DNA of 64,000 nucleotides. Source: a virus. The notes beneath the pieces were generated by a model that was not told the DNA's origin, did no database searches, and worked only from the letters and a program-made list of their open reading frames with translations. Positions 2,681-39,279 of this stretch are shown piece by piece. A program made the translations under genes and the position numbers. Each line of letters opens with the position of its first letter. Position 1 is the stretch's first letter. The DNA is taken from the IMG/VR virus record IMGVR_UViG_3300045454_000060, positions 38,456-102,455 of that record; one strand, 5' to 3'.

Positions 2681-3496
2681 ATGAGCAAGTCCCTTCGCGG
2701 TTCCCGGCGTGAAAACGCCAAGAACAAGAGGGAGGGACGTGGTGTGCTCCCCCTCACGTCCTCTTGCGAGGACGCATTGCGCGACTTTCCTGCCGCGCGC
2801 GAGACTGCATTCCGACCCATCAACACCTCCCAGGCGCGCTATGCCGGTTTGATCGGCTCGATGGAGCTGGTCTTCGGGCTGGGCCCGGCCGGCACCGGCA
2901 AGACCTATGTCGCCGGGATGCTGGCCGCCGAGGCGCTGCTCGAGGGCAGGGTGAAGCGCATCATCGCCACGCGGCCGATCGTCGAGGCGGGAGAGGAGCT
3001 CGGCTTCCTGCCCGGCGAGCTCGAGGAGAAGACCGCCCCTTATTTCCGCCCGCTGCGCGAGGTGCTGGAGCGGCGTCTCGGCCGCGGCCATGTCGAGGCG
3101 CTGATCAAGGGGCGCAAGATCGAGATGCTGCCGCTCGCCTTCATGCGCGGGCACTCCTTCCAGGACGCCTTCGTCATTCTCGACGAGGCGCAGAACACCA
3201 CCCCGACGCAGATGAAGATGTTCCTGACCCGCCAGGGGGAGGGGTCGGTCGTGGTGGTGGACGGCGACAGCACGCAGAAGGACATTCCCGGCCCGTCCGG
3301 CCTGGTCGATGCCGTGCGTCGCCTGCGCGATCTGCCGAGCGTCGGCGTTCATCGCTTCACGCGCGAGGATATCGTGCGCTCCGGGCTGGTGCAGGCGATC
3401 GTGGAGCGCTACGAGGAGCCCGACGAGGCCTTCGAGGCCGAGGTCGAGGATGCCACGGCGGGGTTGCAGCGGGTGCTGGATCTGCGTCGCCCTTGA
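2681..3496 (+). CDS. phoH: PhoH-family ATPase
   Basis: 271 residues from ATG 2681, with GGAG 9 bases upstream. GPAGTGKT at residues 68-75 is Walker A and FVILDEAQN about residue 168 is Walker B; ATRPIVEAGEELGFLPG, SFQDAFVILDEAQNTTPTQ and GDSTQKDIPG are typical of the PhoH/helicase-SF1-like core. PhoH proteins are very common in phages; they are nucleotide-dependent RNA-processing or helicase-like ATPases whose phage role is still unclear. The 35-residue N-terminal extension is basic (KSLRGSRRENAKNKREGR) and could bind nucleic acid. It is transcribed from its own operator-controlled promoter. Confidence 0.93.
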   Translation: MSKSLRGSRRENAKNKREGRGVLPLTSSCEDALRDFPAARETAFRPINTSQARYAGLIGSMELVFGLGPAGTGKTYVAGMLAAEALLEGRVKRIIATRPIVEAGEELGFLPGELEEKTAPYFRPLREVLERRLGRGHVEALIKGRKIEMLPLAFMRGHSFQDAFVILDEAQNTTPTQMKMFLTRQGEGSVVVVDGDSTQKDIPGPSGLVDAVRRLRDLPSVGVHRFTREDIVRSGLVQAIVERYEEPDEAFEAEVEDATAGLQRVLDLRRP

Positions 3497-3508
3497 AAAT
3501 CCCGGGCG

Positions 3509-3790
3509 GGGCGGGCATATTGCCGGAGGCCTGGAGCGGGAGCGATCCCGCCCCAGGCGCCGTCCGGTAGGCTACCCGGCGGTTCCGAATTGCACTCGGA
3601 ACCGCCACCTACCGAACCGGACTTCCAGATACACCCTCACGAGCATATCTGTTCTCCGGTTGGTGTGGCGTGATTGCCACACCCTTCGGGCGTCGTGACG
3701 CCCGAAGCCCGAGCGCGAGGTGCATCCCGCGTCGTGCCGTGATGCTAGCAGATTCTCCCGGAGAGCGGGGCATCTCCTGCCCCGCGCGAC
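3509..3790. other. non-coding stretch with a run of perfect hairpins
   Basis: No convincing gene between phoH and the next CDS. Consecutive inverted repeats: 3530-3559 (GCCTGG..CCAGGC around a CGGG/CCCG stem), 3578-3606 (11-bp stem GGCGGTTCCGA, 7-nt loop) enclosed by CGGTAGG/CCTACCG, 3662-3683 (8 bp GGTGTGGC), 3684-3707 (11 bp CTTCGGGCGTC, 2-nt loop) and about 3766-3786 (GCGGGGC). None is followed by a T-run, so these are not ordinary terminators, except that 3530-3559 may end phoH transcription. Confidence 0.65.
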
Positions 3791-3802
3791 TATGCTTGCC
3801 GC

Positions 3803-4606
3803 ATGACGAGACTGAGCGATCTGACGTGGTGGGAGGCCGACTTCCCCGGCAAGTCCCTCGACCGCGACGCCTGCGAGGCGCTGTTGTTCGACCGCTGGCC
3901 CGAGCGTGAGCGTCGGCGCGAGCCGGAGCTGATGGGCACCAAGTGGTGGGATGTGCGCCTGCTGCACCCTGTCCAGGCGACCTATTGGTTTGCGCATCTG
4001 CTCACGTTCGAGGTGCGGCGGATCATTCGCGAGCATCTCGACGACCGCGCGCCCTCGCTCAGCGCGTCCGGGCGCGTGCTCGACTGGCACCCGATCAAGA
4101 GCGGTGACGTGTTCGAGCCGCCCTTGGATGAGCGCCGGCGACCCTACTGGAAGCGCAAGATCATCGGTCTGATTCGGGCACGCCAGGCAGCCGATCTCGA
4201 CGGGGTGCCCTACGAGGTGTTTGTCGCCTCCGGCCTCAAGCATTTCTATTTCGGCCGCGGCGCCTATGTGCTGGCACGGTCGGCGGTGAAGATGCCGGAG
4301 CCCAATCTGCTCTACGGCGAGAACTGCCTGGCGCAGATCCGCGAGGACTGGCTCGCGCAGCTCCAGGTGCGTCCCTGGGCGGCCAGGCACGGGCGCTATC
4401 GCCTCGCGCATGATGACGGCCATCCCGATCATCGCGCGCATCGCGACTGGCTGGTGCAGCAGCTCTCCCTGCGCTCCCAGCCCGAGCTTGCTGCGGCGCG
4501 GCTGGTGCGCGACGGGCTGCTGTCGCGCCCTGAGGCCGAGAAGGTCTGTCTTGCGCGGGGGCGATCGGTGTTGACGCGGTTCAGCCGCGCCCTGGAAGGG
4601 GCGTGA
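3803..4606 (+). CDS. conserved-looking phage protein of unknown function
   Basis: 267 residues, not recognised. ATG at 3803; only a weak ribosome site. The sequence is soluble, rich in Trp, Arg and His, with an N-terminal TWWEADFPGKSLDRDACEALLFDRW and a central FVASGLKHFYFGRGAYVLARSAV that could be a fold core. No membrane segment or nucleotide-binding loop. It sits between phoH and the helicase-primase pair, so a DNA-metabolism role is possible. A structure prediction would be the most informative test. Confidence 0.75.
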   Translation: MTRLSDLTWWEADFPGKSLDRDACEALLFDRWPERERRREPELMGTKWWDVRLLHPVQATYWFAHLLTFEVRRIIREHLDDRAPSLSASGRVLDWHPIKSGDVFEPPLDERRRPYWKRKIIGLIRARQAADLDGVPYEVFVASGLKHFYFGRGAYVLARSAVKMPEPNLLYGENCLAQIREDWLAQLQVRPWAARHGRYRLAHDDGHPDHRAHRDWLVQQLSLRSQPELAAARLVRDGLLSRPEAEKVCLARGRSVLTRFSRALEGA

Positions 4607-4614
4607 AAACGCGC

Positions 4615-4643
4615 TTGCCGGTCAGTCATACGTGACTTATGAC
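4615..4643 (+). promoter_or_regulatory. operator-promoter of the helicase-primase operon
   Basis: -35 TTGCCG (4615-4620), 17-bp spacer, -10 TATGAC (4638-4643). The spacer contains the perfect-armed palindrome AGTCA-TACG-TGACT (4624-4637). A second related half-site, GTGAGCGCTGATGG, lies just downstream in the leader. Confidence 0.82.
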
Positions 4644-4669
4644 TCTGTGAGCGCTGATGGGATCAGGTG

Positions 4670-6010
4670 ATGACGACGCCGGTTTACGAGTTCGACGCCG
4701 AGACACAGACCGAGATCTGCTCGCTGCTGATGTGGGACCATGATTTCGCTCGTCGCACCGATGGGCTGATCAAGCCTGCCTATCTGGAGAACGATGTCGA
4801 GCGCGGCTTTGCGCGGCTCGCGATCGCCTTCTTCCGTCGCTATGGCGAGGTGCCGTCGCGCACTGCCTGGGTCGAGCTGGTCAAGGATGGCTTCAAGCTG
4901 AAGCCGCCGATCTGGCGCGAGGATCAGAAGAAGGACGTGGTCGAGAGGCTGGCGCTGACCGCGCGGCTGACCGTGCGCTCCCGCCAATTTCTGCTCGACA
5001 AGATCGCCGAGTTCGCGCAGCAGCAGGAGATCACCCAGGCGATGATCTCGGCGGCGGCCGAGCTCGGTAAGACGCACGACCCGGAGCGCTTCGCGCGCAT
5101 CAAGGACAGGCTCGGCCAGGCCTTCGCGGTCGGGCTGCGCGACGGCGACGAGGATTACGACTTCTTCGAGCGGATCGAGGAGCGCACGGAGGATCGCCTT
5201 GCGCGTGCCTCGGGTTCCCTGCCGCGCACCGGCATCACCACCGGGATCAGGGAGCTTGATGGTCTGCTGACCACGCATGGCGGCTGGGGCCGCAAGGAGC
5301 TCAGCCTGTTCATGGGGGCGATGAAGGCCTCCAAGAGCTTCCATCTCACGAGTGCGGCGGCGGCGGCCGTGATGGCCGGCAAGAACGTGCTGTTCGTCAC
5401 CTGCGAGAACGCGATCGACATCCAGGCCAGGCGCATCGACGCCTACATGTCCGACATCGCCATGTCGGATTTCCTGCGCAGTCCGCATACCGTGCGCGGC
5501 GCGGTCGAGGCGGTGGCGGTCTCGGGCAGAGTCGGCAAACTCAAGATTCGCGAGTTCCCGACCATGCAGTTCCGCCCCCGCGACCTCGAGCGATTGATCG
5601 AGGAATACAAGACCAAGGGGCTGATCTTCGATCTGGTCGTGATCGACTATCTCGACCTGATGACCTCCGACATGCCGATCGAGAAGGACACCGAGCGCTC
5701 CAAGCACATCTATGCGCGTTGTCGCGGCATCGCCATGAAGGAGGGGTTCGCGCTGCTGAGCGCCACCCAGACCACGCGCCAGGGGGCGAAGGCCGCCGTC
5801 GCCACTGCCACCGATGTTGCCGAGGACATCAATCGGGTGCGCATCGCCGATCTCGTGATCTCGATCAATCGCACGGAGGAGGAGCGCGCGAACGGCAAGG
5901 CACGCCTCTACATCGCGGCGGCACGCAATGAGCGCGACGGTGTCACCCTGTTCATCACGCAGGATCTTGATCGTGGCAGGGCGGTCAAGGACGTCGAGGC
6001 GGTCGAGTGA
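4670..6010 (+). CDS. replicative DNA helicase, DnaB-like (SF4)
   Basis: 446 residues from ATG 4670 (a GTG at 4667 is also possible). The N-terminal 170 residues are helical, as in the DnaB N-domain; the C-terminal RecA-like ATPase starts near GITTGIRELDGLL. The phosphate-loop position reads GAMKASKSFH, keeping Lys-Ser but with Ser for the usual glycine before Lys. Walker B is FDLVVIDYLDLM and the DnaB-type H3/H4 region is ALLSATQTTRQGA. It should unwind DNA at the phage fork as a hexamer. It overlaps the primase gene by 4 bases, so the two are translationally coupled. Confidence 0.88.
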   Translation: MTTPVYEFDAETQTEICSLLMWDHDFARRTDGLIKPAYLENDVERGFARLAIAFFRRYGEVPSRTAWVELVKDGFKLKPPIWREDQKKDVVERLALTARLTVRSRQFLLDKIAEFAQQQEITQAMISAAAELGKTHDPERFARIKDRLGQAFAVGLRDGDEDYDFFERIEERTEDRLARASGSLPRTGITTGIRELDGLLTTHGGWGRKELSLFMGAMKASKSFHLTSAAAAAVMAGKNVLFVTCENAIDIQARRIDAYMSDIAMSDFLRSPHTVRGAVEAVAVSGRVGKLKIREFPTMQFRPRDLERLIEEYKTKGLIFDLVVIDYLDLMTSDMPIEKDTERSKHIYARCRGIAMKEGFALLSATQTTRQGAKAAVATATDVAEDINRVRIADLVISINRTEEERANGKARLYIAAARNERDGVTLFITQDLDRGRAVKDVEAVE

Positions 6011-32909: not shown

Positions 32910-33085
32910 GCGCTCGCGAGCAGGCCGCGCTCAGGCTGCTCAAGCGCCTGAAGCCGCCGCTGCCGCAGCAGCCGCTCTTTCCGCATTCACCGCCGCGCCC
33001 TAATGCCGGGCCATCCGTCGAGAGCGGCGCGGTCGATCGCAGTCCCCCCATCGAGCACCAGAACCAGCGAGACGCCAGCACATGA
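32906..33085 (+). CDS. small Pro-rich protein
   Basis: 59 residues from GTG 32906 (GTGA overlap). A short basic helix (SAREQAALRLLKRLKPP) then a Pro/Gln-rich tail. No homologue recognised; kept because it fills the gap with overlaps at both ends. Confidence 0.55.
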   Translation: MSAREQAALRLLKRLKPPLPQQPLFPHSPPRPNAGPSVESGAVDRSPPIEHQNQRDAST

Positions 33086-33699
33086 TCGAGCCCATCCGCA
33101 TCACCGCCTTCGATCCCGCCATGCGCAACTGGGGCATGGCGAAGATGCTGGTCGAGATCGCGCAGAACGGCGGTCACAGGATCGAGCTCACCCTGGTCGA
33201 TCTGCGGCTGGTGCAGACCGAGAGCCTGGCCGGCAAGACCGTTCGCAAGTCCTCGGATGATCTGCGGCGTGCAAGCGAAGCCTACAGTGCCGCGCTCGAA
33301 TGGGCGCTCTGGGCGGATCTGCTCTGTGCCGAGGTGCCTACCGGGGCACAGTCGGCACGTGCCGCGTTCGGCAATGGCATGTCGGTCGGCCTGCTGGCGG
33401 CGCTCGCGCGCGAACGCCCGCTCATTCAGGTCGATCCCTACGAGCCCAAGAAGATCGTCACCGGGCGCAAGACCGCGACCAAGGATGAGATGATCCGGTG
33501 GGCGGTGAGGGAGTTCCCGGACGCGCCCTGGATTCGCGCTCGCGGCAAGTCCGACGGCAAGATCACCGATGCCAACGAGCATCTGGCGGATGCCTGCGCG
33601 ATCGCCAGGGCAGCGTTGGGAACCGAGCAGTTCAAGCAGGCGGTCGCTCTGCGCAACTCCATTGCGCGCAGCGTGTCTCAGTCACGGGTGACTGTGTAA
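33082..33699 (+). CDS. RuvC-like Holliday-junction resolvase
   Basis: 205 residues. RNase-H-fold acids: ITAFDPAMRNWGMA (first Asp), LLCAEVPTGAQSARAAFGNG (Glu), and NEHLADACAIARA (final Asp). The Gly-Asn-Gly segment after the Glu and the KKIVTGRKTATKDEM stretch resemble RuvC and phage relatives. It would cut recombination junctions before packaging or plasmid resolution. The last codons overlap an operator copy. Confidence 0.83.
   Translation: MIEPIRITAFDPAMRNWGMAKMLVEIAQNGGHRIELTLVDLRLVQTESLAGKTVRKSSDDLRRASEAYSAALEWALWADLLCAEVPTGAQSARAAFGNGMSVGLLAALARERPLIQVDPYEPKKIVTGRKTATKDEMIRWAVREFPDAPWIRARGKSDGKITDANEHLADACAIARAALGTEQFKQAVALRNSIARSVSQSRVTV
33680..33693 (+). promoter_or_regulatory. perfect-armed operator inside the end of the resolvase gene
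   Basis: AGTCA-CGGG-TGACT, 6 bases before the methyltransferase start. No -35 at the right distance; a possible stoperator rather than a promoter. Confidence 0.5.
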
Positions 33700-34316
33700 T
33701 GAGCGGGCTCGGCGCGATGATGGCGGGCGGCAATCCCGCCGAGGGTCGGGAGGAGGACGACTTCTACCCCACACCTCCCGAGGTCACCCAGGCACTCGTC
33801 AACGCCTGGCAGCTCGTGATCCGCAATCATGCGGACGTCATCTGGGAGCCCTGTGCTGGCGACGGCGCGATGGTGCGCGTGCTGGAACAGATCGGATGTC
33901 CGATTCATGCGAGCGACATCAATCCGCGCGCCCCTGGGATCGACGCGGCCGACTTCCTCGTCGGCGAGATGCAGGGTCGGGTGGGCGAGCGCTGTGCGAT
34001 CATCACCAATCCGCCGTTCGGGCTCGCCGAGGAGATGATCGCGAAGGCCGCTCGCATGGACGGCGTGGTGTTCGCCGCCTTCATGCTGAAGGCGACCTTC
34101 TGGCACGCCAAAACCCGCCAGGCCCTGTTCCGGCAGTTCATGCCGTTTATCGTTCATCCGCTCACCTGGCGCCCGGATTTCAAGATGAAGGGTCGGCCGA
34201 CCATGGAGATGCAGTGGTGCATCTGGCTGCCGCAGCACAAGCGCGTTGCGCCCTGGCCGCTCTACCGACCGCTTGACAATCCTGCGCCGAAGGCCCGGCG
34301 CGGAGTGCGCGCATAG
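33699..34316 (+). CDS. DNA N6-adenine-type methyltransferase
   Basis: 205 residues; ATG overlaps the preceding stop (TAATG). DDFYPTPPEVTQALV, the SAM-binding WEPCAGDGAMVRVL, ASDINPR and the catalytic ITNPPFG are diagnostic of the gamma or Dam-like class. No restriction enzyme neighbour, so it is an orphan enzyme, possibly protecting phage DNA or controlling expression. The specificity cannot be read from sequence. Confidence 0.86.
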   Translation: MSGLGAMMAGGNPAEGREEDDFYPTPPEVTQALVNAWQLVIRNHADVIWEPCAGDGAMVRVLEQIGCPIHASDINPRAPGIDAADFLVGEMQGRVGERCAIITNPPFGLAEEMIAKAARMDGVVFAAFMLKATFWHAKTRQALFRQFMPFIVHPLTWRPDFKMKGRPTMEMQWCIWLPQHKRVAPWPLYRPLDNPAPKARRGVRA

Positions 34317-34417: not shown

Positions 34418-37096
34418 ATGCCGGACGGCATCCTTCCCGCCGAAACCCTCTTTGTGCGCGAGCTGCACCCGGGCATGGGGCGGGCGGTCGCCGAGCGCAC
34501 GGTGCTGCGGCGCAAGCCGGACGGCAGTTTCGAGACCTGGGGTGATGTTGCCGAGCGGGTTGCCGAGGGCAATGCCGCGCTCTGTCCGATTGGCACGCAG
34601 CACGATCGGGTCAGCGAGAAGACGAAGCTCAGGCGGCATGTTGCGAAGGCGACGTTGCTGATGTCGGGTCGGCACCTGCAGCACGGCGATGCCGATCAGC
34701 CGTCGCGCAACATGGAAATCTATACCAACTGCGCAACGGCTGCGATGAGCTGGCTGAGCTTCCTTCTGCTGCTGAACGGCTCCGGCGTCGGCCGCTGCTA
34801 CGACGACGACATGATGCTGGTGAATTGGGACCACGCGCCCCTGCTGCGCGTGGTGATCTCCTCGAGCCATCCGGATTTCGACTGGTCGGCCGACGAGGAT
34901 GTGCGCGACGCCAAGCACAAATATCGTGGCCCCAATGTGCACTGGCACGTGGTGGACGACAGTCGCGAGGGCTGGGCGAAGGCGGTGGAGCTCTGGGAGG
35001 TGATGGCGTTCCAGAAGATCTACGCCGATCACACGCTGGTGCTCGACTTCTCGCAGGTGCGCCCGCGCGGCGCCCCGATCAAGGGCATGCAGGGTCGGCC
35101 GAGCTCGGGTCCGAAGCCGCTGATGGATGCGCTGAAGAAGTGCGCCACCATCAAGGGGGCGGGGATGCCGCCCTGGATGCAGGCGCTCTATATCGACCAC
35201 TACCTCGCCGAGTGCGTGCTGGTGGGCGGGGCGCGACGCTCGGCGCGGATGAGCACCAAGACCTGGCGCGATCCCGGGGCGATCCAGTTCGCGCGCGTGA
35301 AGCGTCCGGTCGAATACGACGGGCTCGGCATGCAGGAGGTGATCGAGCTGCGCGCTCGCTTCGCGGCCGAGAAGCGGACCCCGCCCTTCGCGTTCCTGTG
35401 GTCGTCCAACAACTCGATCACGGTGGATGCCGAGTTCTGGGCGCATGTGCAGGCCGCCAGGAAGGCGATCGCGACCGGCAAGCCGGTGGCGAAGAAGCAT
35501 CAGCACGCCTGGGACGTGCTGAACGCGCTCGCGGAGTCCGCCTATGGCGACGGCACCGGCGAGCCCGGCCTGATCAATGTCGATCGCCTGCGCCAGAACG
35601 ATGACGGCTGGCACGGGCTCGAGGATGGCGGCTATGTCGGCTCGGCCAAATACGCGGTCGAGGACGATACGCGGCTGACGCTTGCGCGTCTGGCGCGCAT
35701 CGCCAAGCGCAAGAAGCTGCACCAGATCACCAATCCCTGCGGCGAGATCAGCCTGTCGGTGCTCGGCGGCTACTGCACGATCGCCGATGTGGTGCCGTTC
35801 CACGCCGACACGCTTGACGAGGCGGAGGATGCCTTCCGGGTCGCCACGCGGGCGCTGATGCGCGTGAACCTGATGGACTGTCTCTACCGGCACGAGGTTC
35901 AGCGCACCAATCGCATCGGCGTGGGTATCACGGGCGTGCACGAGTTCGCCTGGAAGTTCTTCCAGGTCGGGTTCCGCGATCTGATCGACCCGGATTTCGC
36001 CGCGTATCACGCGCGCCAGGCTTCCTGCATCATTCGCGGCGTTCATCCCGGCGCACGTGAGCGCGCAGCCGCGTTCTGGCTGACCCTCGCGCGGTTCTCG
36101 CGTGCGGTGCAGGAGGAGGCGCGTGAGTATGCGCGCGAGCTTGGCGTCAACATGCCGCACACGGTGACGACCATCAAGCCGGCCGGCACCACCAGCAAGC
36201 TGTTCGGGCTGACCGAGGGCTGGCACCTGCCGGCAATGGCGCAGTATCTGCGCTGGGTGCAGTTCCGGCACGATGATCCGCTGGTGGCGAACTACCAGGC
36301 TGCCGGCTATCCGGTGCGCGAGCTGAAGTCCTACTCCGGCACGGTGATCGTCGGCTTCCCGACGCAGCCCGTGATCGGCGCGCTCGATCTGGGCGACGCT
36401 CTGGTGACCGCTTCCGAGGCCACCCCGGAGGAGCAGTATCGGTGGCTCAAGCTGGGCGAGCGCTACTGGATCATCGGCACGGATGAGCGCGGCGCGCCGC
36501 TGCACGCGGAGGGCGAGGATCTGGGCAACCAGATCTCCTACACGCTGAAGTATGATCCGGCGAAGGTGGACTACCCGCACTTCCTGGACATGTTGATCGA
36601 GCATCAGAGCCAGATTCGCTGCTGCTCGGTGCTGCCGGTCGCCGACACCTCCGCCTACGAATACACGCCCGAGCAGGCGGTGACCAAGGTGGAATACGAG
36701 GAGCTGCTGCGCCAGGTCGCCGATGCGACGGTGCAGGAGGAGGTCGATTTCGCGCATGTGGACTGCTCCACCGGGGCCTGCCCGGTGGACTTCAAGGAGC
36801 GCGAGACCGCCGCCAGGGACGAGCGTCACTTCGTCATCTACGGCTACGACGACGGAAGCTGCCGCTGGTGTGATGCCGCGAAGGAGCTGATCCTGTCCAG
36901 GGACTGGGGCCTCACCTTCATCGACATCAAGGAGGAGGCCGCGAAGACGCGCTTCTTCGCGAACAACCCCGATCTGCCGCGCACGGTGCCGCAGGTCTAC
37001 GAGCGCTTCCCGGAGGGCAACACCGCGCTGCATATCGGCGGCTATCATGATCTGGTCATCTACCTGGATGGCGAGGAGACGATCAGCGACCGCTGA
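34418..37096 (+). CDS. nrdJ: B12-dependent ribonucleotide reductase fused to glutaredoxin
   Basis: 892 residues, GGAG 9 bases before ATG. NGSGVGRCY near residue 125, the catalytic NPCGEISL (Cys441), and LFGLTEGWHLP fit a class II (adenosylcobalamin) reductase of the monomeric RTPR type. The C-terminal redox pair is DCSTGAC (783, 788). From about residue 805 a glutaredoxin-like domain follows: HFVIYGYDDGSCRWC (CxxC at 815-818), VPQVYERF (cis-Pro) and HIGGYHDL. The enzyme may therefore reduce itself with glutathione. It makes dNTPs for phage replication without oxygen dependence. The CobS/CobT-like pair upstream might support its cofactor. Confidence 0.9.
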   Translation: MPDGILPAETLFVRELHPGMGRAVAERTVLRRKPDGSFETWGDVAERVAEGNAALCPIGTQHDRVSEKTKLRRHVAKATLLMSGRHLQHGDADQPSRNMEIYTNCATAAMSWLSFLLLLNGSGVGRCYDDDMMLVNWDHAPLLRVVISSSHPDFDWSADEDVRDAKHKYRGPNVHWHVVDDSREGWAKAVELWEVMAFQKIYADHTLVLDFSQVRPRGAPIKGMQGRPSSGPKPLMDALKKCATIKGAGMPPWMQALYIDHYLAECVLVGGARRSARMSTKTWRDPGAIQFARVKRPVEYDGLGMQEVIELRARFAAEKRTPPFAFLWSSNNSITVDAEFWAHVQAARKAIATGKPVAKKHQHAWDVLNALAESAYGDGTGEPGLINVDRLRQNDDGWHGLEDGGYVGSAKYAVEDDTRLTLARLARIAKRKKLHQITNPCGEISLSVLGGYCTIADVVPFHADTLDEAEDAFRVATRALMRVNLMDCLYRHEVQRTNRIGVGITGVHEFAWKFFQVGFRDLIDPDFAAYHARQASCIIRGVHPGARERAAAFWLTLARFSRAVQEEAREYARELGVNMPHTVTTIKPAGTTSKLFGLTEGWHLPAMAQYLRWVQFRHDDPLVANYQAAGYPVRELKSYSGTVIVGFPTQPVIGALDLGDALVTASEATPEEQYRWLKLGERYWIIGTDERGAPLHAEGEDLGNQISYTLKYDPAKVDYPHFLDMLIEHQSQIRCCSVLPVADTSAYEYTPEQAVTKVEYEELLRQVADATVQEEVDFAHVDCSTGACPVDFKERETAARDERHFVIYGYDDGSCRWCDAAKELILSRDWGLTFIDIKEEAAKTRFFANNPDLPRTVPQVYERFPEGNTALHIGGYHDLVIYLDGEETISDR

Positions 37097-37183: not shown

Positions 37184-38125
37184 ATGGGTGCAGAAGGTTC
37201 GAGTGCCATGAGCCGAAACTACGCGGTGAGGATCATCGCCGACTCCATCTCGCCGGAAGGGCATCGACTGACGACGATGGAGCTGGAGTATCCGCGCTTC
37301 ATTCACAGTGAGTTCATGACGCATCGCCAGTTCAGCCGCAACGCCTGCTCCTCGCGCGCGATCCCGACCGCGAAGCTGATCGAGCGGGTGCGGCAGGAGC
37401 CGGTGCTGCCGCTGCTCTGGGCGAGCAACAAGTCCGGGATGCAGGCGGGCGAGGAGCTGGGCGAGGCGGAGCGCCGGCGCGCGGAGGAGTGGTGGCGCAC
37501 CGCTGCCATGCGGGCGGCCAATTCGGCCGAGATGCTGCTCGATCTCGGCGTCCACAAGCAGTGGGCGAACCGGCTGCTCGAGCCGTTCCTCACCATCCGT
37601 GTGGTGGTCAGCGCAACCGAGTGGGTCAATTTCTTCGCGCTGCGCTGCCATCGCGATGCGCAGCCGGAAATCCGTCATCTCGCCGACATGATGGCGGAGG
37701 CGATCAAGTGCAGTGATCCCGTGACGCTCAACCCCGGCGAGTGGCATCTGCCTTATGTCGAGCGCGAGGATGTGGCGGCGGTGGTCGCCTGGCTGACAAA
37801 GCATGTCGTGTCGCCGAGCCAATCGTATCTCAACGAGACCCTGATTCGCGTGTCGGTGGCGCGCTGCGCCAGGGTGTCCTACCGCATGCATGATGGTCAG
37901 GCGAGCGATGTGGGGAAGGATCTCGATCTCTACCATCGCCTGATCGCGGCCGACCCCAAGCACGCCAGTCCAGCCGAGCATCAGGCGACCCCGGACGAGG
38001 TGCTGGTGGAGATCGACACGGGTGGACTGCCGGTGCCGATCTGGCGCTCCAGTCAACTGCACGGGAACTTCCAGGGGTGGGTGCAGTATCGCAAGACCCT
38101 GCCCGGTGAGTGCGTCAAGGGCTGA
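37184..38125 (+). CDS. thyX: FAD-dependent thymidylate synthase
   Basis: 313 residues; GAGGGGGTCGAG precedes ATG 37184 (ATG 37208 possible). The ThyX signature reads THRQFSRNACSSRAIP (canonical RHRxxSxNxxSxR with the first Arg changed to Thr). WVNFFALRCHRDAQPEI is the FAD/dUMP region. It methylates dUMP to dTMP using methylenetetrahydrofolate and NADPH. It is longer than bacterial ThyX (about 230), with a C-terminal extension. Confidence 0.94.
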   Translation: MGAEGSSAMSRNYAVRIIADSISPEGHRLTTMELEYPRFIHSEFMTHRQFSRNACSSRAIPTAKLIERVRQEPVLPLLWASNKSGMQAGEELGEAERRRAEEWWRTAAMRAANSAEMLLDLGVHKQWANRLLEPFLTIRVVVSATEWVNFFALRCHRDAQPEIRHLADMMAEAIKCSDPVTLNPGEWHLPYVEREDVAAVVAWLTKHVVSPSQSYLNETLIRVSVARCARVSYRMHDGQASDVGKDLDLYHRLIAADPKHASPAEHQATPDEVLVEIDTGGLPVPIWRSSQLHGNFQGWVQYRKTLPGECVKG

Positions 38126-38137
38126 GCAAAGAAGGAC

Positions 38138-38674
38138 ATGGCGAACGTGAATACCAAGATGGTGATCGAGCCGAGCGAGGAACTGCGGCGGCTGCTGGAT
38201 GAGGTTTCGGAATCGCTCAAGGCGCTGGCGCAGCTCGAGGAGTCGGTGCTGCGCGTCAAGCGTCTTACCGAGACGGCAAAGCTGCCGTCGCGCGGCAGCC
38301 AAGGTGCGGTGGGCTACGATCTACACGCCGATCTACCCCAGGGCTTCGTGAGCATCATGCCCGGCACGCGCGCCGTCATCCCGACCGGGATCGCCGTTGC
38401 GATCCCCGAGGGCTGCTATGGTCGGGTCGCGCCGCGCTCCGGTCTGGCGTTGCGGCATGGGCTCGACGTGCTCGCCGGCGTGGTCGATCCGGATTACCGC
38501 GGCGAGGTCATGGTGATCCTGCAGAACAACGGCGCCGATCTTGTCACCATCGCCCGGGGCGATCGCATCGCCCAGCTCATCCTCGAAGCCTGCCTGACGC
38601 CGGAGGTCGAGGAGGTGACGGATCTGGACGCAACGGAGCGGGGCGAGCAGGGTTTCGGCTCGACCGGCCAGTGA
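38138..38674 (+). CDS. dut: dUTP pyrophosphatase
   Basis: 178 residues. Trimeric dUTPase motifs: AVGYDLHA (1), APRSGLAL (2), GVVDPDYRGEV (3), RGDRIAQLI (4) and RGEQGFGSTG (5). The extra 40-residue N-terminal helix (SEELRRLLDEVSESLKALAQ) may mediate contacts with other proteins. It supplies dUMP to ThyX encoded just upstream. Confidence 0.95.
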   Translation: MANVNTKMVIEPSEELRRLLDEVSESLKALAQLEESVLRVKRLTETAKLPSRGSQGAVGYDLHADLPQGFVSIMPGTRAVIPTGIAVAIPEGCYGRVAPRSGLALRHGLDVLAGVVDPDYRGEVMVILQNNGADLVTIARGDRIAQLILEACLTPEVEEVTDLDATERGEQGFGSTGQ

Positions 38675-39279
38675 TCGCGCTCTGCGGTGCCGAGCGGGTG
38701 GGCAAGTCCACTCTCGCGCAAGCCTTCGCTCGCGCGCATCATCTGATCTACATCCCATCGCGTGCCGGCGAGGTGTTCCGCGCCATGAATCTGCCGGTCG
38801 GGCCCCTGCCGCCCGAGCAGCGGCTTGTGGTGCAGGAGCGCATCCTGGACGCGCACGTGGCGGACATCGAGGCGGTCAAGGGCGATGGCGCGTGGATTGC
38901 CGACAGGTCAACGCTCGACATGGCAGCCTATGCCCTGTTTGATCTCGCCAATTCGGGCGTCGATCCCGCGCTGGTCGAGGGGTATGTGAACCGCTGTTTC
39001 CGGGTGGCGAACTTCTACTACAGCATGATCGTCCTCGTGCAGCCCGGCATCCCCTATGTCGAGGCGGAGGGCAAGCCGAAAGCCTGTCTGGTGCGGCAGG
39101 CGCTGATGAACAGCATCATCACCGGGCTTCTGCACGATGCCCGGGCGCTCTGCTCGCGCTGGATGCTGCGCTCGCAGGTGCTCGATCTCGACGACCGCTG
39201 TGAGACGCTGATGCGGCTCGTCACGCGATTCTTCCAGCAGACGCAGAACTCGATGCAGGAGGGCGCGGCGCTGCACTGA
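38671..39279 (+). CDS. P-loop nucleotide kinase-like protein (AAA_28 type)
   Basis: 202 residues from GTG 38671 (GTGA overlap with dut). Walker A CGAERVGKSTLAQAFA at the N-terminus, ADRSTLDMAAYALFD as a lid or DR-like motif, and VLVQPGIPYVEAEGKPKACLVRQ as an acceptor region. Phage members act as deoxynucleotide kinases or as ATPases in end repair; the context favours nucleotide metabolism. Confidence 0.8.
   Translation: MIALCGAERVGKSTLAQAFARAHHLIYIPSRAGEVFRAMNLPVGPLPPEQRLVVQERILDAHVADIEAVKGDGAWIADRSTLDMAAYALFDLANSGVDPALVEGYVNRCFRVANFYYSMIVLVQPGIPYVEAEGKPKACLVRQALMNSIITGLLHDARALCSRWMLRSQVLDLDDRCETLMRLVTRFFQQTQNSMQEGAALH

Follow-up and report, generated by a model that had tools for sequence, protein, structure and literature searches.

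The window analysed here, a 64,000-nucleotide stretch within an IMG/VR record of 102,455 bp, is DNA of a bacterial virus. It contains a phage-encoded gene, nrdJ-grx, in which a class II ribonucleotide reductase (RNR), NrdJ, is followed by a glutaredoxin (Grx) domain. A GAG-rich Shine-Dalgarno-like stretch, TCGGAGATCC, lies ~10 nt 5' of its ATG. The features of the locus are as follows.

34418..37096, + strand: nrdJ-grx fusion gene, 892 aa, start ATG, stop TGA, ORF intact
34457..36796, + strand: monomeric class II reductase part (RTPR-type, adenosylcobalamin-dependent by homology), residues ~14-793
36764..36793, + strand: C-terminal redox tail CSTGACPVDF with the shuttle cysteines C783/C788
36794..36826, + strand: linker KERETAARDER (11 residues), no out-of-frame start codon, predicted disordered
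36820..37093, + strand: Grx domain, residues ~800-892, with CRWC, TVPQ and HIGGYHDL
37184..38125, + strand: flavin-dependent thymidylate synthase ThyX (Pfam 7.1e-17; PHROG_85, 6.1e-101)
38138..38674, + strand: dUTPase (Pfam 1.8e-37)
38671..39279, + strand: P-loop kinase with a weak thymidylate-kinase match, its start overlapping the dUTPase stop by 4 nt

The genes that follow nrdJ-grx at 37184-39279 (thyX, dUTPase and the thymidylate-kinase-like P-loop gene) make up a dNTP-supply cluster. Just upstream, 33082-34316 encodes a RuvC-like resolvase (PHROG_159, 6.8e-32) along with a protein resembling DNA methyltransferases (PHROG_799, 2.2e-43). We found no other Grx, no thioredoxin (Trx) and no Pyr_redox_2 flavoprotein in the 102-kb record.

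Judged by its sequence, the NrdJ part is a monomeric class II RNR (NrdJ/RTPR). Homology to RTPR covers the whole catalytic part and the insertion domain (residues 143-242), and the active-site, radical and tail residues are all present. Library searches matched class II RNR over residues 21-791, with E values of 3.9e-100 for PHROG_367, 2.6e-72 for TIGR02505 (RTPR; 244 bits, under the curated equivalog cut-off of 340), 2.8e-32 for PDB 1l1l in a sequence-level search, and 2.8e-12 for PF21995, the RNR-II insertion (pseudo-dimer) domain. The AF2 model of the core superposed best on 1l1l (Foldseek E 4.4e-35). The role of each residue was assigned by homology to RTPR: C105/C453 as the active-site cysteine pair, C441 as the radical cysteine with N439/E443, and C783/C788 (C-x4-C, CSTGACP) as the tail pair, which matches by position that of Lactobacillus leichmannii RTPR. 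All were invariant in alignments with 37-39 relatives.

The glutaredoxin domain

The preliminary description had placed a CRWC glutaredoxin-like domain directly after the C-terminal redox cysteine pair of a class II reductase, at 36820-37096. The order (C783/C788, then C815/C818) and the coordinates (residue 801 to the stop) both proved correct, and a search with residues ~800-892 matched glutaredoxin. The dithiol site CRWC (C815-R-W-C818) is accompanied by a cis-Pro motif, TVPQ, and a GG motif of the GSH-binding type, HIGGYHDL. Taken alone, the domain gave modest library matches, the best being to GRX_bact/glutaredoxin 3 and T4 glutaredoxin: TIGR02181 (GRX_bact) at 2.5e-7, PHROG_22 at 1.3e-6, T4 glutaredoxin 1aaz at 0.0027, and Pfam PF00462 at 0.0043, with a score of 17.7 under the gathering cut-off of 22.9. 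Because these scores were modest, we constructed a Grx profile from 30 other phage and bacterial Grx sequences, excluding the window. The fused domain scored 47.5 bits (1.3e-12) against this profile, compared with a maximum of 8.9 bits among 20,000 shuffles. Its AF2 model has a thioredoxin-type fold (mean pLDDT 74), and the top Foldseek matches in the PDB were mainly glutaredoxins (E ~1e-3). By its CxxC site, cis-Pro TVP, GG motif and predicted thioredoxin fold, the fused domain is a dithiol glutaredoxin. The three motifs are glutaredoxin traits, unlike those of an NrdH-redoxin; the GG motif is present, and no NrdH family appeared among the library matches.

Separate, overlapping and fused nrdJ and grx

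A whole-protein scan of 2.9 million viral contigs (IMG/VR) yielded 70 loci with best-segment identities of 43-63%. The fusion was absent from all 70, and from the four genome loci found with the same query. Where the C-terminus is present in the viral loci, NrdJ stops at most ~30 residues past the tail, and many of these relatives carry a free grx gene just 3' of nrdJ. Overall, a relative typically either has no such partner or encodes it as a gene of its own, often an overlapping one. In 18 of the 20 measured pairs, some of them near-identical, the two genes share 4 nt (ATGA) or 1 nt (TGATG/TAATG); in the other two pairs they are separated by 220 and 438 nt. Overlaps of the 4-nt (ATGA) or 1-nt (TRATG) type occur at loci L005, L006, L008, L012, L015, L046, L082, L093, L154 and others, and the PGAP-annotated Shinella plasmid NZ_CP132310.1 has the same 1-nt overlap. 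The linkage needs ~5 gains or losses on the NrdJ tree. The presence of such overlaps in several separate phage lineages suggests repeated selection for coupled translation. On that tree, the window NrdJ falls nearest to L010, whose record yielded no Grx. No fusion was seen in the 385 Alphaproteobacteria genomes searched. Among INPHARED phages and PLSDB plasmids, too, no NrdJ-Grx fusion was detected; the NrdJ matches there terminate with the tail or shortly past it. Peptide patterns from the Grx region recovered five NrdJ tails and no Grx relative. A Microcystis phage match labelled 'ribonucleotide reductase' (H173) was set aside as no fusion, being a stand-alone Grx located next to class I genes.

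Searching with degenerate DNA patterns that required a CxxC after the tail gave eight matches, several of which turned out to be nrdJ genes overlapped by a grx in another frame. Two further C-terminal NrdJ-Grx fusions were found via such patterns and a scan with the resulting match, L152 being recovered by widening the gap in the pattern.

L152: IMGVR_UViG_2861712243_000002, 2709-5558, NrdJ-Grx C-terminal fusion, 949 aa
L157: IMGVR_UViG_3300019124_000003, 3001-5568, NrdJ-Grx C-terminal fusion

The survey of phage NrdJ for the same fusion, as suggested in the preliminary description, was thus positive for these two loci and negative for the 70 found by protein query. The Grx domains of L152 and L157 clearly exceed the Pfam cut-off, and the distance from the second tail cysteine to the first Grx cysteine is 39 residues in L152 and 36 in L157, versus 27 in the window protein. 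As in the window record, no Grx besides the fused one was found in either. Their NrdJ parts form a clade apart from the window NrdJ, on a distant branch of the NrdJ tree, and L157 NrdJ is 81% identical to that of L093, where grx is a gene of its own that overlaps nrdJ. Because this clade is separate and L157 lies near the unfused L093, at least two origins of the fusion are probable. We do not claim one common origin for the fused Grx modules: its support of 97/87 with 24 Grx sequences was gone with 31 (AU p 0.45 for holding them together).

The overlap of the two genes out of frame in relatives means that a single indel could unite them, and the source record consists of just one viral contig from a metagenome; the fusion might then be an assembly or sequencing artefact, in which an indel or a lost stop joins two overlapping genes. 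The junction argues against this. Between the tail cysteine pair and Grx strand 1, the sole ATG, GTG or TTG in any frame is the in-frame GTG at 36785, which encodes V790 inside the otherwise conserved NrdJ tail. The other two frames contain neither start nor stop across the junction, and ORF 34418-37096 runs in a single frame with no stop codon between the domains. Apart from that GTG, a separate Grx gene therefore could not begin there, and so an indel uniting two genes fails as an explanation. Codon composition is continuous over the two parts (GC3 0.878 in NrdJ and 0.899 in Grx), and the same architecture stands on two more contigs (L152 and L157). We thus regard an artefact as very improbable. 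Both parts lie in one intact ORF, and nrdJ-grx is a genuine, uncommon gene fusion: it unites in one polypeptide what recurs in phages as the gene pair nrdJ and grx.

The survey also yielded some observations on nrdJ itself. At L039, L050, L054, L057, L062, L064, L067 and L070 the nrdJ matches were longer than expected, suggesting insertions, and L050 and L064 contain intein-like sequence within a conserved nrdJ frame. In Rhizobium phage L338C (L061/L080; KF614509) nrdJ is split across several annotated ORFs, possibly through frameshift errors in the record; in its close relatives P11VFA and RHph_I4 it is one intact gene. Four alphaproteobacterial 'plasmids' of 109-118 kb (NZ_CP132310.1, NZ_CP006993.1, NZ_CP090351.1 and NZ_CP071625.1) carry a phage-type nrdJ; they are near Rhizobium phages L338C and P11VFA in size and look like phage-plasmids.

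Proposed re-reduction by glutathione

Monomeric NrdJ regenerates its active site with the tail cysteine pair, which a redoxin reduces in turn (PMC5704485). The window gene very probably encodes a phage ribonucleoside-triphosphate reductase that depends on AdoCbl, carries its own glutaredoxin on a tether past the redox tail and is re-reduced with GSH. After each turnover, C783/C788 would reduce the active-site disulfide C105-C453; C815/C818 of the fused Grx would then reduce the tail disulfide, in cis or between two molecules, and the Grx would be reset by host glutathione, backed by host glutathione reductase and NADPH. The tether would substitute for a diffusing redoxin and hold the reductant at 1:1 stoichiometry. 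What we observed directly is the domains, the conserved residues, the intact frame, and that fusion and gene pair each recur; the path and direction of electron flow, and the benefit it brings, are our inference. In the full-length AF2 model, the tail and Grx are of low confidence (pLDDT <50 at residues 774-806 and 847-892), and no cis geometry is therefore claimed.

By analogy with characterised reductases, built-in glutathione-dependent re-reduction of the tail pair, in cis on the catalytic chain, is the most likely function. We favour it because the catalytic and redox residues of NrdJ are all invariant, the fused domain has glutaredoxin rather than NrdH-redoxin motifs, and the 102-kb record has no other Grx or Trx; because many relatives have a separate grx directly 3' of nrdJ, and L152 and L157 share the C-terminal fusion, again as sole Grx; and because the monomeric NrdJ tail pair is an accepted redoxin site (PMC5704485) and Grx-NrdB a proven GSH-dependent RNR reductant. 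The Facklamia ignava Grx-NrdB fusion works with glutathione at a kcat of 1.4 per s and an apparent GSH Km of 1.2 mM (PMC6187632). This analogy makes plausible the earlier proposal that the enzyme accepts electrons from glutathione without host thioredoxin. Host independence is not supported: as the record lacks a Pyr_redox_2 flavoprotein, the host would have to supply cobalamin and NADPH as well as GSH and its reductase, and the advantage suggested for 'disrupted host metabolism' is unsupported. The fusion would dispense with a diffusing host redoxin, yet still require host reducing power and cobalamin.

The sole characterised phage monomeric NrdJ, from a Thermus phage, uses host thioredoxin (PMC6459318), and neither Trx nor Grx donated electrons to a dimeric NrdJ of Stackebrandtia (PMC5704485). 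The Thermus case, together with an active site of CRWC instead of the typical CPYC, would fit a redoxin fed mainly by host thioredoxin reductase (NrdH-like), or bypassed by host thioredoxin, with GSH not the real donor. HIGGYHDL and TVPQ are glutathione-site features, however, and the top library matches (GRX_bact/glutaredoxin 3 and T4 glutaredoxin) and Foldseek matches (mainly glutaredoxins) point the same way, which leaves this reading improbable. We give still less credence to the idea that the Grx also serves as a free, general phage glutaredoxin, released by cleavage or made from GTG 36785, with the fusion mere co-expression. Other phages do use free Grx and this in-frame GTG precedes the domain, but as a codon of the conserved tail it is only a candidate start, and L152 and L157 likewise have the Grx fused immediately after the RNR redox tail. 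Glutathione-driven re-reduction thus remains our preferred reading. With much less assurance, we lean towards a wider view, in which a broad branch of phage monomeric NrdJ runs on dedicated GSH-driven glutaredoxins rather than host thioredoxin, and at least two lineages have fused the overlapping nrdJ-grx pair into a self-contained GSH-dependent class II RNR.

Comparison with known systems

The fusion is not new as a type. The 2018 RefSeq survey by Rozman Grinberg et al. reported Grx fusions for NrdA, NrdB, NrdD and NrdJ, the NrdJ case once, as grx::nrdJ of Labrenzia (Roseibium) aggregata, in one RefSeq entry (PMC6187632). As far as that entry is described there, it likewise joins a glutaredoxin to a class II RNR, whereas the window, L152 and L157 fusions are on viral contigs, where a monomeric NrdJ carries the Grx C-terminally. 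We found no description of a phage NrdJ-Grx fusion in the literature searched, which was covered in part.

A built-in glutaredoxin as RNR reductant is also found in Facklamia ignava Grx-ATPcone-NrdB and in phage NrdB-Grx proteins (Vibrio phages, Caulobacter phage phiCbK, L161 and L162), the latter with a C-terminal Grx as in the window. In the NrdB fusions, the Grx is part of the class I radical-generating subunit and has to reach across to a separate chain, NrdA; the window protein has it on the same chain as the catalytic site, following the redox tail. The monomeric NrdJ (RTPR) proteins of L. leichmannii (1l1l) and Thermus viruses share the fold, active site and C-x4-C tail of the window protein, but have no fused Grx and use thioredoxin in trans; the L. 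leichmannii enzyme ends just past the cysteine pair. Class II RNR reductants have been little studied, thioredoxin having been shown for these L. leichmannii and Thermus phage enzymes (PMC5704485, PMC6459318). In a natural NrdJ-Grx polypeptide the partner is given by the protein itself, making the question of whether glutathione can drive a class II RNR answerable on one protein.

The overlapping phage pairs (L006, L046, L082, L154 and the Shinella plasmid) encode the same two predicted activities side by side, probably translationally coupled, as two polypeptides versus one in the window. The series from separate genes through 4-nt or 1-nt overlaps to a fused gene is a clear example of phage gene-fusion evolution.
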